A DNA stretch of 64,000 nt from Desulfobacteraceae bacterium (GCA_003599865.1 QZKS01000047.1:1-64000), one strand, 5' to 3'; numbered from the stretch's first letter, positions 19,977 to 36,080 are shown. Translations and numbers: made by a program. The notes: a model not told the origin generated them from the sequence alone.

Positions 19977-20053
19977 CGGGGCGTGGCGCAGTCTGGTAGC
20001 GCACTTGAATGGGGTTCAAGGGGTCGGAAGTTCAAATCTTCTCGCCCCGACCA
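19977..20053 (+). tRNA. tRNA-Pro (anticodon GGG)
   Basis: A complete 77-nt cloverleaf. The acceptor stem CGGGGCG pairs with CGCCCCG (20043-20049), the anticodon stem CTTGA/TCAAG encloses the loop ATGGGGT with anticodon GGG, and the T-arm carries GGAAG TTCAAAT CTTCT. The discriminator A is followed by an encoded CCA end. It reads proline codons CCC and CCU. Confidence 0.96.
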
Positions 20054-20095: not shown

Positions 20096-20132
20096 ATGCC
20101 GGTAATCCACATAGGACAAGATCGGGATACAG

Positions 20133-21080
20133 ATGTTCTTTCTGCTGAAGCTATCCATGACCCGCGGTATGGCAAAGGGATGGAACGGGTTTGTCTGGAT
20201 GCTGAAGATCCTTGTACCCATTTCTTTTTTAACGTCCCTGCTTGCCTGGTCCGGCTGGATATACAGGCTGGATTTTATATTGGAGCCGGTTATGGGACTG
20301 ATCGGCCTTCCTGCCGTTGCCGCCCTTCCTCTTTTTGCCGGATTGCTGACCGGAATTTACGGTGCCATCGCCGCCATGGCCCTCCTGCCGATGACCGTAG
20401 ACCAGATGACACTGGTTGCGATTTTCCTGCTCATCTCCCACAATCTGATTCAGGAAAGCATGATACAAAGTCAATCCGGACTCTCCTTTCTTAAGGCCAC
20501 GACCTTCCGTCTGATTGCCTCAATCGTAACAGTGATGGCAGCTTCCTGTTTTATGGACCCGGAATCAAGCGTTGCAGTCATTTTAGCAACCGCCCCGGTG
20601 CCGACGCATGAACCGTTTCTCTCGATGCTGAATACCTGGCTATTAACCACCCTGGTTCTTTCCGGAAAAATACTGGCCATTATCATGACCCTCATGATGG
20701 TTCTTGAAATCATGAAAAGTTACCACCTGATCGATCGTATCGTCCGGATGATGTCTCTTGTTTTAAAAACACTCGGTCTCGGCAAGCAATCCGGCTTTCT
20801 CTGGCTCACCGCCGCTGCATTTGGATTGACCTACGGTGCGGCGGTCATTGTGGAAGAAGTTAAGGAAGGAAATCTTTCTAAAGATGAACTGGAACGCCTC
20901 CACCTTTCCATTGGCATCAATCACGCGATGATCGAAGATCCGGCCCTTTTCCTGTCATTGGGACTCAGCCCTTTCTGGTTGTGGGGACCGAGACTGGCAA
21001 CCGCCATCCTGGCTGTTCAGCTGCTGATCATCACCCGGCGGTTGATTCCCTTTTCAAAGTTTTTCATCTCCCGGAGATGA
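20133..21080 (+). CDS. Membrane protein with nucleoside-recognition (Gate) domain
   Basis: A 315-residue integral membrane protein with about eight hydrophobic helices and two related halves, as in the Gate/nucleoside-recognition family that includes spore maturation proteins and parts of FeoB and transporters. Typical segments are the glycine-rich helices PLFAGLLTGIYGAIAAMALLP and LISHNLIQESMI in the first half, and GLTYGAAVIVEE in the second. It stands alone between the tRNA and a convergent operon. The transported solute is unknown. Confidence 0.75.
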   Translation: MFFLLKLSMTRGMAKGWNGFVWMLKILVPISFLTSLLAWSGWIYRLDFILEPVMGLIGLPAVAALPLFAGLLTGIYGAIAAMALLPMTVDQMTLVAIFLLISHNLIQESMIQSQSGLSFLKATTFRLIASIVTVMAASCFMDPESSVAVILATAPVPTHEPFLSMLNTWLLTTLVLSGKILAIIMTLMMVLEIMKSYHLIDRIVRMMSLVLKTLGLGKQSGFLWLTAAAFGLTYGAAVIVEEVKEGNLSKDELERLHLSIGINHAMIEDPALFLSLGLSPFWLWGPRLATAILAVQLLIITRRLIPFSKFFISRR

Positions 21081-21124
21081 ATGAAAGCCACTGATATCGA
21101 AAGAGACGAACCGGACGGATAAGC

Positions 21125-21649
21125 TCACGGGTATCGCACTGCAAAAGCCCGGAAATAGTTATCGTTGCTGCGAAAGTCCCAGTGCCCGTAGCCGTATTCA
21201 AAATTGAAGGTCCACGCTGACGAATCCTTTATTTCACCTGCCCACACCCACATGCCGGTTGTCTCCAGCAAAGGCGTCATATTGATTGTACCCACTCCCT
21301 TTTTATACAACGTACTCAATTCATATTTAGTCGGCATCCGCCATTTCCCGCCGGCAACCGTTAAATTTTCGACCCAAGTCTTGGCAGCATCAAAAGTGAT
21401 ATCCTTGTCCGGTCCTGCATACCATTCCAACCCGGTATCTTCATCATGGACCACCCCGTTGGCATATTCGATATAATGGCCATCCCGCCTGATAATTTCG
21501 TAAGTTTTTTTCATTTTTTGCTGCCCGGACACAGACAAGCGCTCTTGTTGTCCGCTATCTGATGTGCCCATATATTTCCGGCAGCCTGTTACATGCGCAG
21601 TGATCAAAATTGTAAACAATAGGGGGATAAAAATTATATTTCTCATCAT
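21125..21649 (-). CDS. DUF1566-like lipoprotein
   Basis: A short exported protein of about 174 residues. The N-terminus is hydrophobic and ends in the lipobox-like VTGC. The body shows the DUF1566/Lcl-like pattern: DTGLEWYAGPDKDITFDAAKTWVENL, GGKWRMPTKYELSTLY, and aromatic residues near the end (WAGEIKDSSAWTFNF), which recall C-type-lectin-like folds. The start at 21649 is chosen because GGAGG stands directly upstream, rather than an upstream in-frame ATG at 21763 that would run into the neighbouring gene. It is the last gene of the ExbB/TonB-like locus. Confidence 0.75.
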   Translation of the reverse strand: MMRNIIFIPLLFTILITAHVTGCRKYMGTSDSGQQERLSVSGQQKMKKTYEIIRRDGHYIEYANGVVHDEDTGLEWYAGPDKDITFDAAKTWVENLTVAGGKWRMPTKYELSTLYKKGVGTINMTPLLETTGMWVWAGEIKDSSAWTFNFEYGYGHWDFRSNDNYFRAFAVRYP

Positions 21650-21722
21650 ACCCTCCTCAGGTAATACTATAGAGCGATTATAAAAGCCGCCCTTTCCATT
21701 AAGGTATGCAATGCGTAAGGAT

Positions 21723-24014
21723 TTACTTCGTTCCCGTTTTTCCCTCAGATGCTTTTGAGTCAATATGCAACAGCCTCATATAATGGAAATCCCGAGGCGA
21801 ATTCGCATGATATAATTTTCGTATCAATGTATGCAAAGGGTGGTTGACGTCAAACACCATCTTGTTGCGCAACGCATCCATATCCGGCATTTGACATAGC
21901 AATAGGCATTCCTCTTTGATCTGTTTCAATTCCAGCAGAAGCTGGTGTAAATTGCCCGGAAATAACCCATGCCCAAAAGGCCGTTTTTCATCCAACGCGC
22001 TTTGGGGCTGTGATAATTGTTTTTCTTCGATGAATGCTGTGAGGGAATCGATATCTTGTACAATTGAAAGGATTTCTTCTCTGGTATGTGTTTTTTCCTT
22101 TGCAAGCCGCTGCTTCAATGGCTGCATGAGTTCGCTGATGCGCATACGGGACTGCCTGTCGATCGGATCATTCTCTGATTCTCCGCTGATCTCTTTTTCA
22201 ATCAAAGCCAGCCGTTCGGATAGTTCCCGCGGAACCTGCTGCAGACCCGGTTGCAATACAATACCGTAAGGCGCGCGCATGATGATTTCAGGAACGGTTG
22301 CCTGCATCCGGGCCAGGTCTTTGTCCGGATACTTATCGTCCTGAACCGCGTAAGCCTTTATCAAATCCGAATTGCGAATCCGATCGGCCTGGATAAAAAC
22401 ATATTTTTTGTATTTTTCAAGATGGCCCAACTCTGCCAGTCGCTGCGCTGTAATAAAATAATTCCGAATATCAAATGGAAAAATTTCCAATGCCTGAATA
22501 CGGCGTGCCAGAGAAAGATCGTACTTCTTCAATCCTTTCTCCCATTGAGCGGATAAAAAGTAAATATCGGACAACAGCTCGGCCGCTTCGACAGCTCCGT
22601 AATAGGCATTGTCGGGAACAATGTCCTGATAGCCGTTATTGACATGGCGTGTAAAAAAATCCAAATACCGGATCAGCGCCTTTTCAAGCAGGGGAATGTT
22701 GATCTGCAAACTCCCGACGCTTTTCGAATCGATATGATGGTCATAGTATAAAGCCGTATCAAGGCTTACATTCATAATGGCCCGCCAGAGTTCATGCATG
22801 GCCGCCAGATATGTTTGCTGGGTTAAAAATCCGTTTTCAAACAGGATGTTTTTGCCTCTACCGATCCGGGCCAGATCATCGAAAAGATCCATCGCCTTAT
22901 CCAATACCGCTTTATCTTCATGCCAGGCATTGCCTTCCCGCCGCTGCAGGACAGGAATCGATCTTAACACCGCCCGTTCCGGCCCTTCGGTATAAAGCTT
23001 TGAAAGAACAAAAGAGAACAGTTGGAGTTTTTTAATAATAACCGTAGACCGGCCATGTGTTGTTTTGGCCATTCCATAGAGCATCTCGTAATGGGAAAGA
23101 CAATCGATCAGACTTTTCTCGATTATGGAAGAATCATTTCCTGACGCAAGCAAATTTTCAAATGACCGACGCTTTTTTTCAGATTCTATAAACTGTACCG
23201 TAAAGCCCAATCGGAAATTATCCGATTCCGGCCCGCTGATACCGCCTGCTATGTGCTCAACCCATTTGCCATAACCCTTGGAAGGCATCCGGGATGATAA
23301 ATTCCAGATGATCACACCCAGCGCGTCTATGCCGGATAATTTGTGTTTGACAATGGCCCGCTGAAGGATGAGATTGGCCAAATTTCGATAAACGTAGGGT
23401 GTACTGCGATAAAAGTCATGCACTCTCGCCGCCGAAGAAGCGTCCCCATTTTCATTTGCAGCGGATTCCATTTTCAATACGACATCCATCCAGAGTTGAA
23501 ATAGATCCTGTACAAATCCCTCGGCATCGTCTTTTTCCATATCGTAATGCGCCTTGATATAGTAGTACCAGAAAGCCATTTCCGGCAAATCGAGTTTGGC
23601 TTTCAGAGGTTCGGAATCCATGGTGTGCAATGCTTTCTCAAGGTATACAAAATCGGAGGTCTTTAGATAAAGAAGCAGTTGGGCGATAGCCAGTTGCCGG
23701 AGAGCTCTGTCCGGGAAAACCTTCGGCACACCGTCTTGCGGAAGGGTATTGACCCGTTTTTCCCATTCTCCCGTAAAACCGGATAACTTCTGATCAAAAA
23801 CTTGAATTTCTTTTTCAGTGATCCATTTTTCAATATCCTGCCGATCATGCCACGTCAACTGATAGGCACTGTCCAGCCACTGGTCCCATGAGCCCTTGAC
23901 CGTGCTTGGCGCGGCCGATACGACCGCCGGCAAGAATAAACCGAACAGGATAGCGATGCGGATTGTTCTGCGGCAATTCAAGTTTTCAATTATTTTCAAG
24001 GCATTCACACGCAT
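21723..24014 (-). CDS. Large exported protein, copy 1, of the ExbB/TonB-like locus
   Basis: About 763 residues with a Sec signal peptide (hydrophobic IAILFGLFLPAVVSAA). The mature part is mostly helical with no family I recognise. It is clearly paralogous to the protein at 26954-29317: both open with WDQWLDxAYQLTW and share ARxPxKGYGKWxEHI-like, GPESDNF and GAVEAAELLSDI blocks in the same order, plus a related C-terminus (HPLHTLIRKLYH versus HPFHTLLRRLYH). I chose the start at 24014 because GAGGAG precedes it by 7 nt. The start lies inside the 3' end of the TonB-like gene, so the two are coupled. Probably periplasmic. Confidence 0.85.
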   Translation of the reverse strand: MRVNALKIIENLNCRRTIRIAILFGLFLPAVVSAAPSTVKGSWDQWLDSAYQLTWHDRQDIEKWITEKEIQVFDQKLSGFTGEWEKRVNTLPQDGVPKVFPDRALRQLAIAQLLLYLKTSDFVYLEKALHTMDSEPLKAKLDLPEMAFWYYYIKAHYDMEKDDAEGFVQDLFQLWMDVVLKMESAANENGDASSAARVHDFYRSTPYVYRNLANLILQRAIVKHKLSGIDALGVIIWNLSSRMPSKGYGKWVEHIAGGISGPESDNFRLGFTVQFIESEKKRRSFENLLASGNDSSIIEKSLIDCLSHYEMLYGMAKTTHGRSTVIIKKLQLFSFVLSKLYTEGPERAVLRSIPVLQRREGNAWHEDKAVLDKAMDLFDDLARIGRGKNILFENGFLTQQTYLAAMHELWRAIMNVSLDTALYYDHHIDSKSVGSLQINIPLLEKALIRYLDFFTRHVNNGYQDIVPDNAYYGAVEAAELLSDIYFLSAQWEKGLKKYDLSLARRIQALEIFPFDIRNYFITAQRLAELGHLEKYKKYVFIQADRIRNSDLIKAYAVQDDKYPDKDLARMQATVPEIIMRAPYGIVLQPGLQQVPRELSERLALIEKEISGESENDPIDRQSRMRISELMQPLKQRLAKEKTHTREEILSIVQDIDSLTAFIEEKQLSQPQSALDEKRPFGHGLFPGNLHQLLLELKQIKEECLLLCQMPDMDALRNKMVFDVNHPLHTLIRKLYHANSPRDFHYMRLLHIDSKASEGKTGTK

Positions 24015-25125
24015 TGGTAAGCTCCTCACAGCGGTCGGTTGCCATCCTTCCTTGCGATGTAAATATGATCACGTTAAAATGTTGAACCGTAAATCGTTCC
24101 GACGGCCAGTAAAATCGATAAATTCCCGTTTTATCAATACACTCCTTCGGATACCCGTTTTTCTTGACCAGTGCCGCCAATTTTATTTTAATTGCCTCTT
24201 CAACCGGCCCACAGGCCTTGAGTTGAATCAATGATACGCCGCTTTCGGCAAACTGGATCTCCGCCGGATCTTTATCCGGCTGTTTTATACCGGCTCTTGT
24301 CGTAACCGGCAGCATTGGATTGTCCGGACCGGCTTGCGCTTCCGGGTATTGATAACGCTCCGTTTTCTGCACTGCGACAGTAATTTCTTCACCCTCGTTA
24401 TAATTCGGTTGCCTATTTTTTACCGACGGCATCCGGGTTGCCTGACTGGAAGTAGAAACCATGTCCCGATTGTTATCGGCGGCGTCTAATGCAAGATCGG
24501 GCATGGTTGGAACCAAACCGTTCCCGACCTCCGCCTTCCGGGCTTCCTGCTGTTTGACGGTTGGGACATGTTCATCCGTATATGTTTTTGTATTCATTCC
24601 GGGCAGCTCAAACTCTTTATCCATATTCAGGCCGGCCTCAAAATCCAGCTCCCTTTTTCTCACCGGTTTGGGTTTAGGCTTGGGTGTTGGCTTGGGCGCC
24701 GGCTCCGGTTGATCAACCGATTTCGGCACGGGCTTGAGCTGTTCCGCAACCGGTTGGGGCGGCAAGGACTGGGGTTGCGGTTTTTCCGCCGGTTGGGGTT
24801 TGGGTATTATTTTTTCAGGAGCCGCCGAATACTGCAGGACTAATTTAAGTTTCCGGTCTTGTACAATTTTCTTTTTGTCGGGATGGCTTTCACGGTAATA
24901 GTGGATTGAAAGCCAGTAATTAAAAAGAACAATCGCCAGGATAACCGCCAGTATGTTCATAAAACGGGTTTGGAATAAAAGCGCCGGTATCCGTTGGATA
25001 AATATCAACCGATCCCCAAAAACCTTACGCCGGTCTTGATTCCAGGCTTCCGGTTCGATCCTGGGCCTGGGCATATGAAGCCTGGCTCCACCCCGGCCAT
25101 AATATTGACTGAAAACCGTTCTCAT
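23986..25125 (-). CDS. TonB-like proline-rich envelope protein
   Basis: A 379-residue protein with a cytoplasmic N-terminus of about 50 residues, one membrane helix (about 54-74) and a proline/lysine/glutamine-rich linker (about 105-156, many KP and QP pairs), the layout of TonB and TolA. The C-terminal domain (about 293-379) is not a standard TonB domain: it holds five cysteines (305, 329, 366, 373, 375) and ends ACECLENN. Its start overlaps the ExbD-like stop by 4 nt. It presumably carries proton-motive force from the channel to an envelope partner. Confidence 0.75.
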   Translation of the reverse strand: MRTVFSQYYGRGGARLHMPRPRIEPEAWNQDRRKVFGDRLIFIQRIPALLFQTRFMNILAVILAIVLFNYWLSIHYYRESHPDKKKIVQDRKLKLVLQYSAAPEKIIPKPQPAEKPQPQSLPPQPVAEQLKPVPKSVDQPEPAPKPTPKPKPKPVRKRELDFEAGLNMDKEFELPGMNTKTYTDEHVPTVKQQEARKAEVGNGLVPTMPDLALDAADNNRDMVSTSSQATRMPSVKNRQPNYNEGEEITVAVQKTERYQYPEAQAGPDNPMLPVTTRAGIKQPDKDPAEIQFAESGVSLIQLKACGPVEEAIKIKLAALVKKNGYPKECIDKTGIYRFYWPSERFTVQHFNVIIFTSQGRMATDRCEELTNACECLENN

Positions 25126-25610
25126 GGGGCTTGGCCTTCATTCCCATCTTTCGGTGTAACGGCAATAACAACTTCTTCATTTTTCCACACCTGCTGAATC
25201 AAAACGTAGGCCGTCAAGAGGTCCTCGGCCCTGGCTGACGGATGGGGCCACAGCACCGGACCGGATACATTGGACGTAAACCTTTCTTTTAATTCCTGAA
25301 GAAGCTGCGATTCGGGTATGCGACCGCTTTCCGCTATTTTGGATGCTCCCCGAAAAGTGATCAGTTGAAATGGCGCGACTTCCTTTTCTTTTGGTTTTCC
25401 GTCCTTTTCATGCAAGATGGTTTCAAAAATAAACAGTCTTAAATGGGTCGTTGCCTTTTGAACTAATTGTTCACCATTTTCCTGGGGCACTTTGGGCAGG
25501 GGAATTTTTTGTATGCGTGTTGCCGGAATCTGGCTATATGAAATCAATAGCAAAAACGCCAGGTCGGCAAAGGAGAAAAGCCATATAAAATTATTTTTTC
25601 TTCCGCTCAT
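25122..25610 (-). CDS. ExbD/TolR-like protein
   Basis: A 162-residue protein with one N-terminal membrane helix (about 8-27, FSFADLAFLLLISYSQ) that keeps an aspartate at residue 16, equivalent in position to the essential membrane aspartate of ExbD/TolR. The rest should be periplasmic and is divergent in sequence. The start at 25610 is one base after the ExbB-like stop codon, so I prefer it to an upstream ATG at 25694 that overlaps exbB by 80 bp. It would form a proton channel with the ExbB-like protein. Confidence 0.78.
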   Translation of the reverse strand: MSGRKNNFIWLFSFADLAFLLLISYSQIPATRIQKIPLPKVPQENGEQLVQKATTHLRLFIFETILHEKDGKPKEKEVAPFQLITFRGASKIAESGRIPESQLLQELKERFTSNVSGPVLWPHPSARAEDLLTAYVLIQQVWKNEEVVIAVTPKDGNEGQAP

Positions 25611-25611
25611 T

Positions 25612-26214
25612 TTATGCTTCCACCGTATCTGTATTTTCCAGGTGATGAAACAGGTTAATACCAACATCAATACAATGGGATGCGCGATTGACAATCCAGA
25701 TTTTCACCAGTTCGATCAGCACAAATCCGGAAAGCGCATACAGGGTGGACAACAGGGCAATGCCCAACCCCTTCGCATTCATCAGCAAGGCACTATCGCT
25801 GCCGGCGTTAAAGACCAAAATCATACCCACGACCGTACCAATGAACCCTATGGGCGGCAGCACGTTGGCATACAATGTAATCGGGCGGATATACCGATTT
25901 TCAAGAAAATTTTCCATGATCTGTTCCGTACTGTCTTCCAACGCCCCCAAAAATATAGGTTCACGGGCCTTCTTATGGGCCACGACCGCATCATGAAGCG
26001 TTTTGGCGGTCAGGATCATGATCGGAATATCAACACTATCCACCGGAGACTGGATCGCTTTTACCAGTTCCTTTTTGGCCTGTTCCATGTTCGCAGCCAG
26101 TTTAAGGTGACGGATGGCCTTTAATCCCGGGCGAAGCCCCCACAGAACCCAACTGATAATGACCAAACCGAAAAACAAGGTGATTTTTGTACCGCCAAAC
26201 ATTAGAATATCCAT
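25612..26214 (-). CDS. ExbB/TolQ/MotA-family proton channel protein
   Basis: A 200-residue membrane protein with three hydrophobic helices (about 11-28, 118-137, 147-175) and the family signature LPPIGFIGTVVGMI at 119-132. A cytoplasmic loop lies between the first and second helices, as in TolQ/ExbB. It is shorter than classical ExbB (about 240). It sits directly upstream of the ExbD-like and TonB-like genes, so the three genes form an energy-transducing module. Confidence 0.85.
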   Translation of the reverse strand: MDILMFGGTKITLFFGLVIISWVLWGLRPGLKAIRHLKLAANMEQAKKELVKAIQSPVDSVDIPIMILTAKTLHDAVVAHKKAREPIFLGALEDSTEQIMENFLENRYIRPITLYANVLPPIGFIGTVVGMILVFNAGSDSALLMNAKGLGIALLSTLYALSGFVLIELVKIWIVNRASHCIDVGINLFHHLENTDTVEA

Positions 26215-26274
26215 AATTTTTAGACCTTTTTATGTATCATGAAAGACTGTCAACAGCTTTCGCCGAATCATGCG

Positions 26275-26913
26275 TCAATCGGTTTCCACGCCTTTGGAGG
26301 AACCGGACCGGGCGGATAGTAAATTTTCAAGATCATGCAACGCATCTTCGATGGTAACTTCGCCTTGATCAAACTGGTTAATCGTTTTTTTCCTCAATTT
26401 TTCCGGAAAATTTTCCTGTATCTGGACAAGCATCTCGCGGGCGGGACGGACATCATCAAAGATCCAGTAAAGATAGGCTTTTATATAATACATTTCGATG
26501 ATCAACCGGCTGTAGTCATCATCCTGCAATGGATGTGTGCGATATAAAATGGGATCTATATACTTCCGGATGTAATCCAGAGTCGGCTTTTGAATCGAAT
26601 TCAGCGTCGTTTGGTCGGCTTGCAGTTTAAAATGAACACAAAACAAACGGAACGCTTCCAAACCCATTTTGGCGGAACGTAATTGTTCGTCGGATACTTT
26701 TTCAGATGGTTTCGAACCGATGGAACCGGGTTCGGACTTTGAATTGTTCGGCATTTCATGGGATGGTGGCTGCTCATTCGATTCAGTGACATTCATCAGC
26801 ACGACACCTGCCGTTTGTTGACGTGCCGGCGTACCTGTTTTGTTTGCACACCCGGTTTTACAAAAAAGCAGAAACATGCATAGAATCAGGAGCGCAATCC
26901 TTTTTCGATTCAT
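26275..26913 (-). CDS. Lipoprotein, copy 1, of the ExbB/TonB-like locus
   Basis: About 212 residues with a lipoprotein-type N-terminus (hydrophobic LLILCMFLLFCKTGC; the lysine in the lipobox is unusual). A low-complexity linker follows, then a helical domain (about 80-205) with FDQGEVTIEDALHDLENLL near the end. This domain is paralogous to the protein at 29362-29982: both have FR-F-HFKxQxDQT, YIxxxIDP and a fused A-Y-x-x-W-I-x-stretch. The start at 26913 is supported by GAGGA upstream. It lies 60 nt before the exbB-like gene. Confidence 0.72.
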   Translation of the reverse strand: MNRKRIALLILCMFLLFCKTGCANKTGTPARQQTAGVVLMNVTESNEQPPSHEMPNNSKSEPGSIGSKPSEKVSDEQLRSAKMGLEAFRLFCVHFKLQADQTTLNSIQKPTLDYIRKYIDPILYRTHPLQDDDYSRLIIEMYYIKAYLYWIFDDVRPAREMLVQIQENFPEKLRKKTINQFDQGEVTIEDALHDLENLLSARSGSSKGVETD

Positions 26914-26953
26914 TTTTTCCTCGTTTATCATAAGCCCGATAGCTGCCTGCCTG

Positions 26954-29317
26954 TTATTCTGTGTTCATCTGGTTTGTTGTGAGCCGTTGCAGCCTGGAGT
27001 TATCCGCCTGGTTTCCCGGTTGCTGCAGGCTGTCCAGGCTAAACGGCACCATGGGATTCTCCCCCTTGAGCACTCTCAAATAGTTAAAATTTTCATGAGG
27101 ATACTCATGATACAACCGACGCAGGAGCGTGTGGAAGGGATGCTTCATCTCCAATATCATGGTATCACGCATTTCTTTTATTTCCGATAGTTTTACCAAA
27201 ATCGACCCTTCGTCTTCTATCTGCTTCAGATCCAGGCTGAATTGATTGAAAAATTTGGAAAAAACAGCAGATCTACCCATGGCTTGATATTGGGCCGGCT
27301 TGGCCTTATCCTGCAAATCACTTATTTCTTTGATGATGCTGTTAATATGACGCAGCTCTTCCAGTATGAGGGTGATCTCCTTTGGTGCAAAAGACTTTGC
27401 AGTCAATTTGTTTCTCATTTTTGTTGCAAAATCATTCATCCTGCCAAGCTTATCCGCGCCGATTTGATGATCCTGAGCTTTTGATGTAAGCTCTTTTAGA
27501 ATGATATCCATTCGATTGGATATCGCATTGGGAATACTGTTCAGTCCGTCCTGGAGAACGATATTATCCGGCGCATATAGTATAATTTTCGGAATTAATT
27601 CCTGTAAAACCTGTAAATCAAAGCCCATATAATTTTCCTTGTTATCCGATGATGCCGCGATGACTTTCGAATTCCGAACACGATAAGCTAACAGGAAAAG
27701 AGACTTTTTATATAATTCAAGGCGACCTAAACCAGCCAGCCGCTTTACCAGAACATAATAATTATGAACATCAAAGGGAAATATTTCAGCCGCCTGGAGT
27801 CGGCGGGCAAGGAATAGGTTATAATTTTGGACGCCATCCGCCCATGAAGCGGCCAAAAAGTGTATATCCGAGAGAAGCTCGGCAGCCTCCACTGCCCCGA
27901 AAAAAGCATCATCAGGGACGATATCCAGATCGCCTTTGGCGGCATAATAGTCAAAGAATGTTAAATACCGGGATAATGCTTCTATCAGCAACGGTATATT
28001 CTGCCGTAATGTGCCGGCTTGTTCCGGATGAATCAACTTCTGATAATAAATCCCCGTATCAATGCAATTGTACATGATCGCCCGCCAAAAATCATGCATC
28101 GCCGCTACATAGATTTCACGATTTAGAAATCCATTCCTTTGCCAATCTTTTTCAAGAATACCGGGACTGGAAAGTTCATAAAACAGCTTAATCGCATCGG
28201 GGACAATTTTTTTAGATTCATGCCACACTTTACCATCCTTGCTTTGCAAAAGAGGAACAGTGACCAGAAAGGATTGTTTCGGACCTTTTTCATACAGCCG
28301 GGACGTAATAAAGGATATCAGATTTAAACGCCTGATTGTTGCCGACGCTTTGCCATGTCCTGTTTTGGCCAGTTCATACAGGAAATCGTAATGCTCAAAT
28401 GTCGAAATCAGGCTTCGTTCGATTGAAGCCCTATCTTTGGCAGCATCGATCAGATCCTCGGTTGTCTGATGCAGCTTTTCCGCTTCTAAAAATAACACGG
28501 TATAGGCAAGATGAAAATTGTCGGATTCCGGACCGTACATCCGGTTGACAATATGCTCGATCCATTTACCATATCCTTTTTCAGGCATTCGTTGTGATAA
28601 ATTCAGGACAATAACCCCCAGGCTATCGATATTGGGCATCCTTCGCTGTACGATGGCCCTGCGGATAATCAAATTGGCCAGATTTCTATAGAGATAGGGA
28701 ATGCTTTGATAATATCCGCGCAGGTTGTTCAAAGAAGATGAGGGACCGAAGCCAAATTGGGCGGATTCCAGCCGCAGGACAACATCGAACCATATACGGT
28801 AGATATCATTTACGAATTCGACCGAGTTACCGCTGATCATATTGTGGTGGGCGCGGATATAAAAATACCAGAAGGCCACTTCCGGCAACTCAATCTTACT
28901 TTTCAAAATTTCCTGATTTGCAGCCGCCAGCGCTTTTTCCAGATGAACCGGATCCGATGACCGAAGATACAAAAGCATCTGCGCAATCGCTAAATGGCGA
29001 TAGGCCGCAACCGGATAGGGTCCGATTTCACCCGGCAATGTTTTTTCAGAAAGCCGCTGTTCCCATTCGTTCGCAAAGACAAGCAATTTTTTGTCAAATG
29101 TTTTCTTTTCGTTTTCTATTATCCAGTCATCAATATCGTTTTGATCAAGCCAGGTCAGTTGATACGCCTGATCCAGCCATTGATCCCATCCGCTTTTACC
29201 GGCACCTTGCGATGCGGCAGGGCAGCATAACAACAGTATGGCTGCAACTACAATTTTCAGGTGTAAATCAAACAGAATGTCCTTCGCGACCCGTATCGTT
29301 AAGACAATTGCATGCAT
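26954..29317 (-). CDS. Large exported protein, copy 2, of the ExbB/TonB-like locus
   Basis: A 787-residue protein with an N-terminal signal peptide (VVAAILLLCCPAASQGA). It is a full-length paralogue of the protein at 21723-24014, with the same opening GWDQWLDQAYQLTW and matching blocks throughout (FWYFYIRAH, YRNLANLI, GYGKWIEHIV, GPESDNFHLAYTV, AVEAAELLSDI, FPFDVHNYY). I see no known catalytic motif; the sequence is helical and may form a repeat-like scaffold. GGGAG precedes the ATG by 7 nt. Confidence 0.85.
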   Translation of the reverse strand: MHAIVLTIRVAKDILFDLHLKIVVAAILLLCCPAASQGAGKSGWDQWLDQAYQLTWLDQNDIDDWIIENEKKTFDKKLLVFANEWEQRLSEKTLPGEIGPYPVAAYRHLAIAQMLLYLRSSDPVHLEKALAAANQEILKSKIELPEVAFWYFYIRAHHNMISGNSVEFVNDIYRIWFDVVLRLESAQFGFGPSSSLNNLRGYYQSIPYLYRNLANLIIRRAIVQRRMPNIDSLGVIVLNLSQRMPEKGYGKWIEHIVNRMYGPESDNFHLAYTVLFLEAEKLHQTTEDLIDAAKDRASIERSLISTFEHYDFLYELAKTGHGKASATIRRLNLISFITSRLYEKGPKQSFLVTVPLLQSKDGKVWHESKKIVPDAIKLFYELSSPGILEKDWQRNGFLNREIYVAAMHDFWRAIMYNCIDTGIYYQKLIHPEQAGTLRQNIPLLIEALSRYLTFFDYYAAKGDLDIVPDDAFFGAVEAAELLSDIHFLAASWADGVQNYNLFLARRLQAAEIFPFDVHNYYVLVKRLAGLGRLELYKKSLFLLAYRVRNSKVIAASSDNKENYMGFDLQVLQELIPKIILYAPDNIVLQDGLNSIPNAISNRMDIILKELTSKAQDHQIGADKLGRMNDFATKMRNKLTAKSFAPKEITLILEELRHINSIIKEISDLQDKAKPAQYQAMGRSAVFSKFFNQFSLDLKQIEDEGSILVKLSEIKEMRDTMILEMKHPFHTLLRRLYHEYPHENFNYLRVLKGENPMVPFSLDSLQQPGNQADNSRLQRLTTNQMNTE

Positions 29318-29361
29318 TGTTATACTCCCTGCAGTGGTCTATTCCGCTAACCGGTAAGCAG

Positions 29362-29982
29362 CTATTGTTTTTTATTTGTATCAGGGCCGATAAGGCCCTC
29401 AAAATCATCCAATGCATCGTCCAGTGAAATCTTCCCCCTGTCAAAATGATGGATCGTAATATCCGGGTGTCTTTGAGGAAAGGTCCGGTTCAGCACCGCA
29501 ATGGTCTTGCGGGCGGAATCTGTTTCATTATGAATCCAGAAAAGATAAGCTTTCATATACAGAAAGGAGGCGATGTAAATTTCGGATGTCGGATCATATT
29601 TGATTTTTTGAAGTTTAAGATGGGGGTCAATATGGTTGGCGATATACTCAAAAGTCGGTTCTCTCAATGACCCCAGCATCGTTTGATCATTTTGCATTTT
29701 AAAGTGATAACCAAAAACCCGAAAGGATTCCAAACCCGTCAACGCGGCCTGCAATTGCTCCACCGACGCAGGTTGATAGTCGACGAAAGCGGATTCCGTC
29801 GTGTCGGTACTGATTTCCCTTACTTGATCATGATTCCGATCCGGTCCGGCTTCCTCTTGCGATGCAGTCAATACGCTCTCAACCTGCCGGTTATCGGATT
29901 TCACCATCTGTCCCTGACAGCCGGCAAGATGGATATATGCCAGGATTGCCATCAGCAACCGAATCATAGCGCTGTTGTTCAT
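29362..29982 (-). CDS. Lipoprotein, copy 2, of the ExbB/TonB-like locus
   Basis: About 206 residues with a canonical lipobox (LAGC) at the end of a hydrophobic N-terminus (MIRLLMAILAYIHLAGC). The mature C-terminal part matches the lipoprotein at 26275-26913 (ESFRVFGYHFKMQNDQT, YIANHIDP, KAYLFWIHNET, DDALDDFEGLI). The start at 29982 follows GAGGA at the right spacing; an upstream in-frame ATG at 30255 would add 91 residues of implausible sequence. It is the first gene of the locus. Confidence 0.75.
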   Translation of the reverse strand: MNNSAMIRLLMAILAYIHLAGCQGQMVKSDNRQVESVLTASQEEAGPDRNHDQVREISTDTTESAFVDYQPASVEQLQAALTGLESFRVFGYHFKMQNDQTMLGSLREPTFEYIANHIDPHLKLQKIKYDPTSEIYIASFLYMKAYLFWIHNETDSARKTIAVLNRTFPQRHPDITIHHFDRGKISLDDALDDFEGLIGPDTNKKQ

Positions 29983-30452
29983 AATTTCCTCGTTGAATAA
30001 TGACGATTCGCCATCACAGGATGTCACGTTTGTGCCCAAACCCATACTACTGATAAAAAATCGCTTTTCAACTGTTATTTTATATTCATGCACAATCACC
30101 CATGGTAAAAGGTACGGCCTTACACCGGATATCGCCCTGATTTTACAAAAAACGCGATTGATAACATGCGATTGATCCGTATTTTGCATTCCCAATAAAA
30201 AAACATGAACAATGTTCTTGAAAACGAAACCATTTTCCGATATATCAAAAAACAAACCAATCAGTATTTTTTAAAATCTTCTTAAATTAAAATAAGTTAA
30301 CGCATCTCGAACCATTGAGATTACCATAACAACCCGATCATCATATCCATTTCCGAAGTCCCTTATCGTTCTCTTCGGGTTGTTATCTGTTTGCCGTTGG
30401 CGGTTGTTTCATTGACTTCTTCTTTAACCCTAACTGTTTGAAGGAGGTGCCC
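29983..30452. other. Divergent intergenic region
   Basis: About 470 bp separate the start of the ExbB/TonB-like locus from the pectinacetylesterase-type gene. It is AT-rich, must hold both promoters, and contains a perfect 12-bp inverted repeat (30326-30386). I could not pick a convincing promoter by eye. Confidence 0.5.
30326..30386. repeat. Perfect 12-bp inverted repeat in the divergent intergenic region
   Basis: ATAACAACCCGA (30326-30337) and TCGGGTTGTTAT (30375-30386) are exact reverse complements with a 37-nt loop. There is no T-run, so it is not a standard terminator. It could be a paired regulator site or a leader stem upstream of the pectinacetylesterase-type gene. Confidence 0.45.
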
Positions 30453-31964
30453 ATGCGATTTTCAATCCATCGAAACATTTTATTATCAGTCACCTTATTG
30501 TTATCTTTTCTGATGCTTTTTTCCTGTTCCGGATCGGATTCCAACATGGATGCGGATGTAGAGCCGGCTGCCGGCAATTCGCTCCGGTCGGTGCAGGAAC
30601 TGCTTTCCATGTCTCCGACCGATATGACGGATGAGGACCTGGACCAGCTTCGGCTCCAGACTGGCGGAATGACACAGGAGGAATATGAGGCCATTTATGG
30701 TCCCCTGCCGGAAACAGATGATGGAGAAGCAGAACAGCGGGATGCCCAGGACCTTCTGGACACCCTCACATCCGCAATCTGGGGTTATTGGGATAAGGTT
30801 GACATTCCCGGTGCCGTTTGCGGCAACAACTCCCAATACAAAATTTTTGTCATGAAATCGACCGGTTTCTGGAACTGGCTGTTGGGATATACCAATGACG
30901 TGATTGTTTATCTGGAACCGGGCGGCGCATGCTGGGATTATCCCAGCTGCACAGGACAGGCCGGTATCCGGGGTGCGGCCAATCCGGACGGCATTCCGGA
31001 CAATTTCATGAACCTTGGCGACTATTTAGATCCGAACATCGAGGGCGGCAGCGTCAATGCCGCCATTTCGCCGCTGATTCTCAAAAATCACCCGACAGGG
31101 GATAATGTTCAGACCTCCAACTGGAATAAGGTCTTTATCCCGTATTGTACCGGAGACGTTCATTCCGGCAACCGGATCGCAACCTATACGGATGATGTGA
31201 CCGGAGAAACCATCACCTATCATCATGTCGGAGCCGTCAATATCGAGGCGGTCATCGAATATTTGAAAGATGAATTCCCCAATATCGACAAACTCATGAT
31301 CACCGGCTCCAGTGCAGGCGGGGTGGGCACGCTGACCAATTATCATTTTTTCCGAAAAGAACTTTCTCCCAGAAAAGCCTATATGCTGAACGACTCGGGT
31401 CCGATTTTTTCCGCCACCAGCGATGCGGACAATCAATATCGTCTTCACCAGAAAATCAGCCAGGAATGGAATACCGATTACCTGATCGGCAAATTGCAGG
31501 CGGATTTCCCGGGTGTGGATATCACCGGTGATTTCGGCCAGATCCACACGCTTCTGGCCAATGCCTATCCGAACGACCCCCTGGCCATTACCCTGTTCAC
31601 CAGAGATACCAACTTTTCCGGATATTCCTATGCAAGGTTCTATGATCTGGATGAAACCGATCCTGCACAGGTGGAAATCATACTCGATCTCTGGGAGGAA
31701 GATATCGACAACCTGGTGGCGACCTATAATCAGCATAATAACTTAAGCTACTATATCCCCTATTTCCGGGATATGAATGAAAGCCATTGTACGGCCATTG
31801 TCGAATTTACCGGAACCGAATACCTGAATACGGGGGTTGATGTAGGAGACTTTATCAATGATGTCCTGAACGGAAATCCGGTCCAGAGTTATCGGGAACC
31901 GGAAAACCCGGCAGATGCGTATGTAACGGACTTCTGGATGGATCTGGTCAATCTGCTGCTGTAA
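30453..31964 (+). CDS. Pectinacetylesterase-family lipoprotein
   Basis: Secreted alpha/beta hydrolase of the pectinacetylesterase/Notum family. The 503-residue protein has a lipoprotein-type N-terminus ending in FSCS, then an acidic linker, then the hydrolase domain with YLEPGGACWDYPSC and the nucleophile motif GSSAGG. Conserved cysteines and the HHVGAVNIEAVIEYL segment fit the family. The start at 30453 follows AAGGAGG. The substrate may be an acetylated or acylated glycan or protein, which the sequence does not tell. It is followed by a terminator. Confidence 0.85.
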   Translation: MRFSIHRNILLSVTLLLSFLMLFSCSGSDSNMDADVEPAAGNSLRSVQELLSMSPTDMTDEDLDQLRLQTGGMTQEEYEAIYGPLPETDDGEAEQRDAQDLLDTLTSAIWGYWDKVDIPGAVCGNNSQYKIFVMKSTGFWNWLLGYTNDVIVYLEPGGACWDYPSCTGQAGIRGAANPDGIPDNFMNLGDYLDPNIEGGSVNAAISPLILKNHPTGDNVQTSNWNKVFIPYCTGDVHSGNRIATYTDDVTGETITYHHVGAVNIEAVIEYLKDEFPNIDKLMITGSSAGGVGTLTNYHFFRKELSPRKAYMLNDSGPIFSATSDADNQYRLHQKISQEWNTDYLIGKLQADFPGVDITGDFGQIHTLLANAYPNDPLAITLFTRDTNFSGYSYARFYDLDETDPAQVEIILDLWEEDIDNLVATYNQHNNLSYYIPYFRDMNESHCTAIVEFTGTEYLNTGVDVGDFINDVLNGNPVQSYREPENPADAYVTDFWMDLVNLLL

Positions 31965-32030: not shown

Positions 32031-32151
32031 AAATCAGACATGACAGGGGTCATGGGAAATGCTTCCGGCCGTCATTCGGCACATTGACATCACGCAAAAT
32101 ACGTGTAACTATAAAAAGCATAAAAACAATGACAAAAAACGAGGAATTCCC

Positions 32152-32397
32152 ATGAAACAGAACATCACATTAAGCATAGACAAAGATCTTATTGTACGGG
32201 CAAAAATTCTTGCCGCCAGACGCCGGACATCGATCAGCAAAATGCTGGCAGAAGACCTTAAAATGCAGGTTGAGCAATCCGAACGCTACGAAACCGCCAA
32301 AAAGAAAGCATTGTTCAACCTGAAAAAAGGGCTCCATTTGGGTGGGCAACAAATAACCGGCAGAGAGGAATTGCATGATCGAAAAAACCTTCGTTGA
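32152..32397 (+). CDS. Antitoxin of a PIN-type toxin-antitoxin pair
   Basis: An 81-residue protein starting MKQNITLSIDKDLIVRAK, followed by ARRRTSISKMLAEDLK, the ribbon-helix-helix pattern of DUF6364/VapB-like antitoxins. The C-terminal part (KKGLHLGGQ) resembles the tails that bind a PIN toxin. The start at 32152 follows GAGG; the gene overlaps the toxin start by 23 bp. It would repress its own promoter and neutralise the toxin. Confidence 0.8.
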   Translation: MKQNITLSIDKDLIVRAKILAARRRTSISKMLAEDLKMQVEQSERYETAKKKALFNLKKGLHLGGQQITGREELHDRKNLR

Positions 32398-32794
32398 TAC
32401 GAATATTCTGGTTTATGCCCATGACCTTGACGCTACTGGTAAGCGCAAAATAGCTCAAAAAACACTTTCTGATCTTTGGGAAAATGGAACCGGCACAATC
32501 AGTATTCAGGTGTTGCATGAATTCTATGTCACTGTCACCCGGAAAATTCAGAACCCCATTTCCATCGCGACGGCAAGGGGAATCATCGAAAACTATCTGA
32601 CCTGGCCGCTGATCATTAATGATGAGAAAACAATGATGCACGCTACAGAGATTGAAGAAAGATACCGATTGTCATTCTGGGACGCACTGATTCTGGCTGC
32701 GGCATGCCGGGCAAAAGCGGAAATCCTTCTGACCGAAGATCTCTCTCATGATCAGGAAATTGAAGGAATTCAAATTGTGAATCCCTTTCTTTGA
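32375..32794 (+). CDS. PIN-domain ribonuclease toxin (VapC-like)
   Basis: A 139-residue PIN-domain nuclease. The acidic metal-binding residues are visible as FVDTNIL (D8), VLHEF (E49) and FWDALI, with a late TEDLSH, the standard PIN order. PIN toxins cleave tRNA or rRNA; the target here is unknown. It overlaps the antitoxin gene, so the pair is translationally coupled, and a weak hairpin terminator follows at 32804. Confidence 0.87.
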   Translation: MIEKTFVDTNILVYAHDLDATGKRKIAQKTLSDLWENGTGTISIQVLHEFYVTVTRKIQNPISIATARGIIENYLTWPLIINDEKTMMHATEIEERYRLSFWDALILAAACRAKAEILLTEDLSHDQEIEGIQIVNPFL

Positions 32795-32803
32795 GCCAGG
32801 TAG

Positions 32804-32829
32804 GATGTGCTTTTAAGCGCATCTTCTTT
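32804..32829 (+). terminator. Weak terminator after the PIN toxin gene
   Basis: GATGTGC (32804-32810) pairs with GCGCATC (32817-32823) with one G-U pair and a 6-nt loop, followed by TTCTTT. It lies 9 nt beyond the toxin stop codon. Confidence 0.5.
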
Positions 32830-32923
32830 AAGCAACACCAAAACGTCAATTCGAAACGGATATTTCTCCTGCGTCTGTCGAATTTCCTGACGAAGAAAAG
32901 TTCGGCTTTACGCTGATACATTT

Positions 32924-34462
32924 TTATCCAAAAATCTCTGCATATTTTTTTTCAACAGCTTGGATTTCTCGGTCAGTAAGCTGTTTAAATTCCTTGTTCT
33001 TTGCTCGATTTGGAAACTTACCATTATTGTTGTTCAAAAATCTTATTAGAAGATCGACAAGCGTATCCGGCATATCCATATAGTTTTTCATGAAGTCGTT
33101 AAGCAGATCATATTTTTTCAGATAGTTAACTTCATCAGGAAGTGTTCTGTCTACTGTTTCCTCAACACATTCAAATAAAAACTCAGCCTGTTTTGTTGCA
33201 TCAAAATAGCGATACAGATCGATCGTCTCGTTCAGTACCTCAACATTGTTTCGTTCTGTCGGTCGCCATTCAATGAGATCAAGGCGTGGCTTTGAGAAAT
33301 GCTCCAATATTTTTCGATATTCATCCATACGCTCCAAAATGACAGCAGATACCGGAAATATTAACCCTTTTGGAACAAACCCTTTCTCAGCCAGAACATG
33401 ATGAAATAAATAGCGGTGAATACGACCATTTCCATCTTCAAAAGGATGGATAAATACAAAACCGAAAGCAATAAGCGTCGCCACCAGGACAGCATGAAAA
33501 TCATCCTGAGAAAGAAGTTCATAACAATCGATTAAACCATTCATAAGCACCTGTAAATCATCCGGTTTGGCAGAAATATGATCCGGCATCGGTATTCCTG
33601 TGCTACGGTCGTGTGCGCCTACAAAACCACCTTCCACCCGCAGACCGGGCTTGATAAAGCGATGATCTGCGATAACAATCTGCTGTAGCTGTTCCAGTTC
33701 GGGAATACTGAGTTTACGCTGCCCGGCTACCCCAATTATCCTTCCCCATCTTTCGATCCGGTTGTGTGGTGGGGTTTCACCTTCAATCGTATAAGATGCT
33801 TTTGAGTCCTTAAGTAACAAAAAAGCAGCAGCTCGACATAGTAAACCGGGATGGGTCCGGCCGATATTTTCTATGGCAGTTTCCGACAAATTTTTATCAA
33901 TATATTGCTCAAGCTTTTTTGTTTTTCGGATCAAAGGGCAAAAACTGTGTGTCCCCGGCAAGTTGTTGCGAACCCGATGGCGTTTGGAGGGATTTGATTT
34001 CCCTTCGTATTGCAACTTGTTATTGACGATAGGAACGAAATTCCCGGTTTTAGCATCTTCAATATCAAGTTGCTGCCCACGCAGCCATTCCCACAAAAAC
34101 CAAAGTCTGCGGCTGTAGCTTCCTGTTGGCTCGGAACGAATAATCGCCTGGATTTTCTGGGCCTCAATGTTTTGAAATAATGCGTTGAGTACGGCCAGAT
34201 CAATACCCTCGTACTTCAGGGCAAAAACCAAATGCCCATTAAGTGTATCTTGAGGCTTATGGCGCGGTGTAAAAATATGCCAGCGTTCATAATCGTATAT
34301 CTTATGTTTCGTTCCGATAGCGCAGAGATAATCCGGTATCGGAACTTTCAGATCATGCGCCTGAATGAGTGCTGAATATCCGGCTAAACCAGCCCCCTCT
34401 TCCAGGGCCGGAAAGTCATGAAAAACAATTATATCTAATGAAATTTGATTATAAATAGCCAT
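32924..34462 (-). CDS. Fic-domain adenylyltransferase
   Basis: A 512-residue Fic protein that would transfer AMP (or another nucleotide part) to a target protein. The full Fic motif HPFEDGNGRIHR stands at residues 339-350. An inhibitory-helix motif SYTIEG (S/TxxxEG) lies upstream at 223-228, so this is a class II Fic that inhibits itself. A long N-terminal region (about 1-180) contains a conserved TGSYSRRLWFLWEWL stretch of unknown role. No partner antitoxin is needed or seen next to it. The target is unknown. Confidence 0.88.
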   Translation of the reverse strand: MAIYNQISLDIIVFHDFPALEEGAGLAGYSALIQAHDLKVPIPDYLCAIGTKHKIYDYERWHIFTPRHKPQDTLNGHLVFALKYEGIDLAVLNALFQNIEAQKIQAIIRSEPTGSYSRRLWFLWEWLRGQQLDIEDAKTGNFVPIVNNKLQYEGKSNPSKRHRVRNNLPGTHSFCPLIRKTKKLEQYIDKNLSETAIENIGRTHPGLLCRAAAFLLLKDSKASYTIEGETPPHNRIERWGRIIGVAGQRKLSIPELEQLQQIVIADHRFIKPGLRVEGGFVGAHDRSTGIPMPDHISAKPDDLQVLMNGLIDCYELLSQDDFHAVLVATLIAFGFVFIHPFEDGNGRIHRYLFHHVLAEKGFVPKGLIFPVSAVILERMDEYRKILEHFSKPRLDLIEWRPTERNNVEVLNETIDLYRYFDATKQAEFLFECVEETVDRTLPDEVNYLKKYDLLNDFMKNYMDMPDTLVDLLIRFLNNNNGKFPNRAKNKEFKQLTDREIQAVEKKYAEIFG

Positions 34463-34658
34463 TTTTATGAATTACCGTTTTTTTAGTACGAATCAGCATG
34501 GCATGAAAAACGCTTTTTGTCTATGAATTTTAATTATAATACAATAAATATATGAATAATGATTACTGTGCGCAGCAAAAGGCTACAAAGCTATTTTGAG
34601 AGGTACGAATGGCGTGAACCGGAATGAGAATTCTTATTTAATCTGATGTTTGGTGATT

Positions 34659-34949
34659 TTAAATTCTACCTTTCCAATAGTCTGGTTTTCTGTGAAGATG
34701 AGCGATTGCCACAATCAAGATTTCTTGTTCTCGTATTTGGTAAATAATTCCATATGGAAATCGCCGAGTTTGACATCGCCTTGATCGTTTTGAAATATGA
34801 TGCCATGCTTCAGGAAATTCACCAATCCTATCGAGAGTACTCAACACCTCAGTCAAGAAGGCATCTCCGAGACCTGGGATCTCATAGTTGTAATATTCAA
34901 TGGCATCATCCAGCTCGATTTGAGCAATTTCCAGAAAATTTATCTTCAT
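34659..34949 (-). CDS. RelE/ParE-family toxin
   Basis: A 96-residue toxin of the RelE/ParE superfamily, with the typical opening AQIELDDAIEYYN and the ending (FPYGIIYQIREQEILIVAIAHLHRKPDYW). Such proteins cut ribosome-bound mRNA or inhibit gyrase; the sequence does not decide which. It starts 6 nt after the antitoxin gene. Confidence 0.87.
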   Translation of the reverse strand: MKINFLEIAQIELDDAIEYYNYEIPGLGDAFLTEVLSTLDRIGEFPEAWHHISKRSRRCQTRRFPYGIIYQIREQEILIVAIAHLHRKPDYWKGRI

Positions 34950-34955
34950 TTTAAT

Positions 34956-35168
34956 CTACCTGTATTTCTGAAGAACACTCTCTAAAGAAATCGCCCTGAT
35001 TTTTCCTTGGTCATAGGCATCAATCCTCACTTCAGCCTCTTGTGCCCATAACTCGTCAATTTCTTTATCAGACTTATCAAGAGTCGAAATCAGCTTATCT
35101 ATGAGTTGTGCTTTTTCGGAAGGCGTAAGCGATAGCGCCTCCTTAAAAATATTATCTGTGGTGGTCAT
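34956..35168 (-). CDS. Addiction-module antitoxin (PF09720 type)
   Basis: A 70-residue antitoxin that begins with a helix containing LTPSEKAQLIDKLISTLD, the signature of the addiction-module component family, and continues with EIDELWAQEAEVRIDAYDQGKI. It is encoded directly upstream of the RelE/ParE-type toxin. A GGGG-type site precedes its ATG. Confidence 0.88.
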   Translation of the reverse strand: MTTTDNIFKEALSLTPSEKAQLIDKLISTLDKSDKEIDELWAQEAEVRIDAYDQGKIRAISLESVLQKYR

Positions 35169-35210
35169 TTTTTCCCCTTTGTATTGCTACAATTTGAAAT
35201 AATTATTTAA

Positions 35211-35239
35211 AAATCATTTGCCAAACATTAGATAGTCAA
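35211..35239 (-). promoter_or_regulatory. Promoter candidate of the RelE/ParE-type module
   Basis: On the minus strand TTGACT (35234-35239) and TGATTT (35211-35216) are 17 bp apart, about 45 nt upstream of the antitoxin start. The -10 is poor. The rest of the 297-nt gap up to the tetR stop codon is very AT-rich and shows no gene. Confidence 0.35.
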
Positions 35240-35465
35240 GAGATTTTGTCTATTTTGATTACAGAACTCATCTTTCAACAATATATTAGAAATAATATTT
35301 TTTTCAACATTTTTTAAATATAAAAACAAATTGTTATAAACATTTCTTATTTTAGCGGGAAAGTGTTTTGATTTTCTGATAACAAGCAGGTGTTTTTGTC
35401 ATATTTCAAAAAAGATGAAAGTGCATCCTGCCAGGCTATTAATCCCGAAAAAACATGACAAACTG

Positions 35466-36080
35466 TTATGTTTCCGCTTTGATCTCCAGCATGGGAAGGA
35501 TCATCTTTGTCCAGAGTCCTCTCAAGGATTGATAATAATCAGGGTTGTCATGGAGAATGGACTGCAAACCCATACCGCCGATGACATACAGTGTCAGGTT
35601 CAGGATTTTTTCAACCGGCGTATCGTGATGATCGCTGGATTGAAAATATTTTCGCCAGAGGGTATCCAGGGACTCCACAAATTCATCAAAAACCGGAACC
35701 AGCAATTCCCGGAGTTCCGCATCGGTCCGGCAGGCAACGGTCAGTTCCACCCAGACATCCCGGACCTTTCCCTGGTAAAAATTTTTCCAGATATAGTCGA
35801 ACAGTTCGGGCAGTTGTTCCTTGCTCATAAACTCAGGACTATTCTCAATGGCCTGTTGAACGGAAGACCTGAACAGGGATTCCCGCGCCGCCTCGGCAAT
35901 CAGCTCTTTTTTGGTTTTGAAATGATGGCTCCAGGCGCCCCTGGAAACCCCTGCCTCTTCTAAAATCCGCGGCAGGGAGGCACCATGATATCCATACTGA
36001 TGAAGGCAATGCATGGTCGCCTTCATCAGTTTTGCGCGCATCTCTTCCCTTCTTTCCTTCTGTGTTTTCCGGTTTTGCAT
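35466..36080 (-). CDS. TetR-family transcriptional regulator
   Basis: A 204-residue regulator with an N-terminal helix-turn-helix (about 15-60, HQYGYHGASLPRILEEAGVSRGAWSHHFKTK) and a helical ligand-binding domain. It is the last gene of the four-gene operon with the CoA ligase and the two dehydratase-type subunits, so it most likely senses an acyl-CoA or free acid from that pathway. A 14-bp palindrome at 40310-40323, ahead of the first gene, is the likely operator. Confidence 0.9.
   Translation of the reverse strand: MQNRKTQKERREEMRAKLMKATMHCLHQYGYHGASLPRILEEAGVSRGAWSHHFKTKKELIAEAARESLFRSSVQQAIENSPEFMSKEQLPELFDYIWKNFYQGKVRDVWVELTVACRTDAELRELLVPVFDEFVESLDTLWRKYFQSSDHHDTPVEKILNLTLYVIGGMGLQSILHDNPDYYQSLRGLWTKMILPMLEIKAET

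Follow-up and report, generated by a model that had tools for sequence, protein, structure and literature searches.

The analyzed window (a 64,000-nucleotide stretch of DNA of a Desulfobacteraceae bacterium) carries a cassette of eight genes, built on an operon that probably encodes a self-contained, proton-driven trans-envelope force transducer of the Mot/Tol/Exb motor class. The gene content of the operon, its conserved order, the kinship of its genes, the folds of its products (at the level of models) and the lack of known families for them in the searched libraries were established directly. Few kinds of machines are known to carry the proton energy of the inner membrane to the outer membrane, and this operon brings three families (the Large protein, the lipoprotein and the C-terminal domain of the transducer) with no match in Pfam, NCBIfam or solved families, together with a transducer lacking the usual motor-binding histidine. 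A literature search, covering mainly papers outside subscription journals, revealed no published description of the operon.

Composition of the cassette

The eight co-directed, minus-strand genes are arranged in the order LipoB-LargeB-LipoA-ExbB-ExbD-TonB-LargeA-Lcl_C lipoprotein (Table 1). The intergenic gaps (44, 22, 60, 1, -4, -44 and 34 bases, respectively) suggest a spacing as in an operon; the overlap of 44 bases between the TonB-like gene and that of LargeA is based on the first possible start of the latter, and the true overlap may be smaller. Only two of the eight proteins reached the Pfam cut-off: ExbB (PF01618) and the Lcl_C protein (PF07603). The sequence-only reading had placed the channel genes between two lipoprotein-Large pairs. 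Two genes of each kind are indeed present, but one pair is located upstream of the basic five-gene unit (lipoprotein-ExbB-ExbD-TonB-like-Large), while the other brackets the channel.

Table 1. Features of the cassette and of the adjoining DNA (positions in the window).
Feature	Position	Strand	Remarks
LipoB, exported lipoprotein, lipobox HLAGC, duplicate copy	29362-29982	-	paralog of LipoA
LargeB, 787-aa exported Large-family protein, duplicate copy	26954-29317	-	44% identity to LargeA
LipoA, lipoprotein of the five-gene operon, at its conserved position	26275-26931	-	10 other genomes have a relative upstream of ExbB
ExbB-like channel subunit	25612-26214	-	PF01618, hhalign, residue alignment
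ExbD-like channel subunit, membrane Asp in WLFxFxDLAFLLL	25122-25610	-	alignment, hhalign
TonB-like transducer	23986-25125	-	YGxGxxxIxMPR cytoplasmic motif, one membrane helix, Pro-rich linker, Cys-bearing C-terminal domain
Transducer C-terminal domain, predicted helix - three strands - helix	23989-24273	-	model, pLDDT 89
LargeA, 768-aa exported protein, predicted alpha solenoid	21723-24029	-	model
Lcl_C-domain lipoprotein, last in the gene run	21125-21688	-	PF07603, E 2.9e-14
10.1-kb block with the Gate-domain gene and the whole cassette	20101-30196	.	missing from two congeners, approximate limits
tRNA-Pro(GGG), adjacent to the block	19977-20053	+	
Gate-domain gene inside the block	20133-21080	+	

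The ExbB-like protein matches PF01618 (E 4.4e-8; 33.4 bits against a cut-off of 22.9) and carries the signature LPPIGFIGTVVGMI by which it had been recognized from the sequence. It is related to the other ExbBs of its genome (hhalign, E 3.5e-9), and is the weakest of the ten MotA/ExbB genes of that genome, which also has seven canonical ExbD genes. Both pore-lining threonines are retained, and the GTV and ST/TT positions align with the ExbBs of the same genome; the residue alignment also revealed that the ExbB glutamate is absent. Cassette-type ExbBs have an invariant glutamate ending the third membrane helix (Glu168 of the protein encoded at 25612-26214), near which they contain extra residues relative to canonical ExbB.

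The ExbD-like protein has the membrane aspartate ascribed to it earlier, which is invariant in all eight aligned members and present also in two further loci, L059 and L060. It did not reach the cut-off of PF02472 (matched by one aligned member, 0.0042), yet it is colinear with canonical ExbD in a profile-profile comparison (hhalign, E 9e-4), which indicates a related but diverged subunit. Since the channel and pore residues are kept, the cassette channel can be expected to use protons. The earlier proposal of an envelope machine is supported as regards a dedicated ExbB/ExbD-type module, which lacks a receptor gene, as had been noted; its putative proton step is deduced from the conserved channel residues.

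The transducer consists of an N-terminal membrane helix, a proline-rich middle part and a C-terminal domain with two invariant cysteines (several members add two more), in agreement with its initial description as a TonB-like, proline-rich protein with a cysteine-bearing C-terminus. The cysteines are probably disulfide-bonded. Compared with solved structures, the modeled domain gave only Foldseek E of 0.25 or worse and VIA Z of at most 3.0, with no TonB_C, TolA C-terminal or AgmX-tail fold among the matches, and the TonB/TolA Pfam domains had no match in the 12 transducer members. The histidine and the SxxxH motif, a motor-binding motif type described previously (PMC12204202), are missing from the membrane helix in all 12 members; the motif was found in three of four control transducers of the same genome, and is therefore not universal. 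With neither the glutamate of ExbB nor the membrane histidine of TonB/TolA present, the contact between motor and transducer must differ from that in Ton and Tol. All eight aligned members with a cassette-type channel have the YGxGxxxIxMPR tail, which is partly present in L059 and L060 and not recognizable in the transducers of L057 and L058, two loci with a different channel. As the tail tracks the cassette-type channel, we infer that it would belong to docking on the cassette-type motor.

The two Large proteins had been described as giant, exported paralogs, similar throughout and assignable to no family. With their 770-790 amino acids they are large rather than giant; otherwise the description is borne out, as LargeA and LargeB share 44% identity across nearly their full length and no family was found for them in Pfam, NCBIfam or PDB. 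The comparison with solved structures yielded only chance or generic repeat matches. AlphaFold models Large as an all-alpha solenoid (pLDDT 78, pTM 0.67), for which Foldseek and VIA retrieved generic helical repeats only (best Z 11.6 with an rmsd of 12.4, within the helical background). Considering the N-terminal signal sequence and the lack of other obvious membrane helices, Large is a putative periplasmic scaffold.

LipoA (with an unusual lipobox, KTGC) and LipoB are paralogous (31% identity over 208 amino acids, E 1.7e-35), and the cassette lipoprotein has no OmpA/Pal peptidoglycan domain (Pfam). The paralogy proposed for the lipoproteins does not extend to the third one, the Lcl_C protein, whose likeness to LipoB is confined to the leader (first 44 residues, 36%, E 1.4e-6). 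Owing to this restriction, the Lcl_C protein may be chimeric, its leader being borrowed, and the two lipoprotein-Large pairs are not symmetrical. No Lcl_C lipoprotein was seen at the module loci of relatives.

Relatives, duplication and genomic context of the operon

The basic unit occurs in 12 genomes (including that of the window) in one gene order, which confirms the predicted linkage to the ExbB/ExbD/TonB-like genes; one of the loci (L015 of genome G397) ends 292 bases before ExbB, and its lipoprotein would lie beyond the contig end. The recurrence of this order in 11 other genomes places the cassette beyond chance. Six of these carriers, Desulfobacteraceae and Deltaproteobacteria MAGs, were found with LargeB among 389 genomes of the order (LargeB alone retrieved zero relatives in the first contig scan, and an alignment query recovered them), and five more with a Large profile among 395 genomes of the phylum. 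One candidate, G436, was rejected as a TPR false match. The profile was built without L057-L060, and the four Large loci found there were each accompanied by the rest of the module; in the genomes searched, Large proteins were never found apart from it, as the claim of linked genes implied. A profile of the transducer C-terminal domain, applied to 385 genomes of the phylum, retrieved the six genomes among these that carry Large and one marginal 73-aa frame (G432, rejected); since all six contributed to the profile, the informative part of this search is the absence of other matches. The operon is rare and sporadic in bacteria of the sulfate-reducer type. There are no shared flanking genes across the relatives' loci, the neighbors (mostly housekeeping genes) being different each time, which argues that the five genes form a functional unit.

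In a tree of Large, LargeA, LargeB and the L015 protein constitute one clade (100/100 support) with unresolved internal branching. L059 and L060 each contain two tandem Large genes, which the tree separates from the window pair, so the doubling of Large arose at least twice. The "two arms" envisaged in the sequence-only reading are therefore a property of the window genome and, independently, of two others, whereas the basic unit has one lipoprotein and one Large.

A change of motor was observed in L057 and L058 (one family), which have, in place of the one ExbB/ExbD pair, an AglRQS-like channel composed of ExbB, a fused ExbB::ExbD and an additional ExbD (PF01618, 4e-22 and 7e-24; PF02472, down to 3e-15). 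The lipoprotein, the transducer and Large are retained despite this swap, which argues that they act together with this class of motor. The fusion polypeptides are encoded at 4784-6103 of L057 and 1607-2911 of L058. Their ExbD helix is MMSLIVILIPLL, with no obvious aspartate, and the partner ExbD may thus carry the proton site.

The cassette lies in a block of ~10.1 kb just 3' of tRNA-Pro(GGG), which is missing from two congeners (G001 and G002) whose sequences are collinear with the window to either side. Direct repeats of at least 10 bases common to both ends of the block were sought and none was found, and no integrase was recognized among its ORFs. The Large gene tree is discordant with taxonomy: the nearest relative, L015, comes from outside the order, and relatives within the order are less close. 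Horizontal transfer of the cassette is likely, the alternative being loss in both congeners. The Gate-domain (PF07670) membrane protein gene inside the block points at the 3' end of the cassette from the opposite strand, and its congener homolog shares only 28% identity. On the other side, the block is bordered by a gene (30438-31964, +) for an exported protein of the pectinacetylesterase family (PF03283; conserved at 88-95% in all three congeners). The neighborhood seems to be a hot spot of insertions and deletions, since a second stretch (32709-35465) is also missing from G001, where positions 3982-3985 of L081 join window position 35466 to 32708. In this stretch lies a gene (32924-34462) whose product was named by eye as Fic-domain-like. 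A small gene pair at 32059-32794, which by eye resembles a ribbon-helix-helix antitoxin with its PIN-domain toxin, is kept only in pieces in G001.

Proposed mechanism

In the mechanism that we infer, which comprises proton use, docking, periplasmic contacts and force output, (i) an inner-membrane motor of the ExbB/ExbD type would use protons; (ii) the dedicated transducer would dock on it, probably via the YGxGxxxIxMPR tail in the cytoplasm together with the membrane helix; (iii) its proline-rich stalk would span the periplasm; (iv) its cysteine-bearing, probably disulfide-bonded C-terminal domain would engage the alpha-solenoid Large; (v) the operon lipoprotein would hold Large at the outer membrane; and (vi) the movement of the motor would pull or turn this outer-membrane assembly. 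In the window genome, two Large/lipoprotein sets would be served by one motor. As a first guess, by analogy with Agl-Glt/Nfs, a surface or outer-membrane cargo may be favored over nutrient receptors. Because the module exists in two motor versions, the part of the transducer that couples to each motor is directly testable, and the compact operons of L059 and L060, in near-complete genomes, make the module tractable.

Comparison with known systems

The genome of the window contains separate Ton, Tol-Pal and Glt-core loci, so the cassette is an additional machine and not the only one of these kinds. A comparable layout is that of the Agl-Glt core and Nfs of Myxococcus and relatives (AglRQS with GltC, D, E and G), which likewise combine an ExbB/TolQ-type motor, a proline-rich TonB-like transducer, a helical periplasmic partner and a lipoprotein, and whose three-part channel resembles that of one branch of the module (L057/L058). 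At the surface of Myxococcus spores, Agl-Nfs moves glycans, and some deltaproteobacteria have the Agl-Glt core alone (PMC3858216, PMC3169522). The cassette could accordingly be a remote branch of these systems, i.e., a motor with a TPR scaffold moving surface polymers or adhesins, but we regard this reading as less likely. In the window and most relatives, a single ExbB and a single ExbD stand in place of the AglRQS set, the operon has no gene for an outer-membrane barrel, and its transducer lacks the features of the AgmX tail. Large, the lipoprotein and the transducer matched no Glt model above chance: Large and the lipoproteins had no match with the NCBIfam Glt models (GltC, GltE), and the best value of the transducers against GltG was E 0.016, for one member and outside the tail. 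In contrast, the separate Glt-like core of the same genome (C6) matched GltC (1.4e-27), GltG (1e-25) and the AgmX tail (4.9e-32). This core (L062, 2444-12129) comprises ExbB, two ExbD, a GltG/AgmX-like, a GltC-like and a long TPR protein.

Tol-Pal shares with the cassette a motor, a transducer, an exported protein and a lipoprotein in a single operon. A similar system tethering or constricting the outer membrane, for which the absence of a receptor and of common cargo genes in the flanks would also speak, is nevertheless unlikely, as neither TolB nor a Pal/OmpA domain (Pfam) is present in the cassette, TolB_N (9.1e-20) is already encoded beside TolQ/TolR-type genes at C18, and the module is sporadic and missing from congeners, unlike a housekeeping system.

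With ExbB-ExbD-TonB the cassette has in common the gene trio and a one-helix transducer with a proline-rich linker, and five Plug-domain receptors are encoded elsewhere in the genome. That it energizes such receptors as a Ton system is, however, very improbable. The receptors at C38 and C62 adjoin their own ExbB/ExbD genes, the C2 receptor lies within ~8 kb of such a pair, and the cassette is devoid of a receptor gene, the SxxxH membrane motif (with the membrane histidine missing from every transducer) and the ExbB glutamate. No kinship with TonB was found for the C-terminal domain of the transducer: against the TonB C-terminal domains of the same genome hhalign gave E 0.15 (probability 0.4%), in a comparison that is weak because a known TonB of the set obtained only E 0.0027.

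A defence system like Zorya, borne on an island and equipped with a proton channel, to which the sporadic occurrence within a block beside a tRNA gene might point, is most improbable, as PADLOC gave no match for any of seven proteins and all components have export signals or membrane helices, with no nuclease or helicase found among them.

The vWA-type force transducers, three-part proteins encoded with TolQ/TolR-like motors and a TPR gene, many of which keep an SHLS motif, resemble the cassette in that a transducer of three parts accompanies a motor and a TPR-like protein (PMC12204202), but neither a vWA domain nor the SHLS motif was found in the cassette. According to the same survey of 2025, PMF-driven 5:2 motors energize trans-envelope systems still to be discovered (PMC12204202). 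The chances seem to us about even that the operon represents a further proton-driven trans-envelope class, apart from Ton, Tol-Pal, Agl-Glt and the vWA type, which would have its own docking mode and three new families, be horizontally spread with a changeable motor and, in some genomes, drive two different Large scaffolds with one motor. The cassette lacks at least one tested membership feature of Tol-Pal, of Agl-Glt and of the TonB/TolA transducers, and a working similar to theirs is still its best reading.
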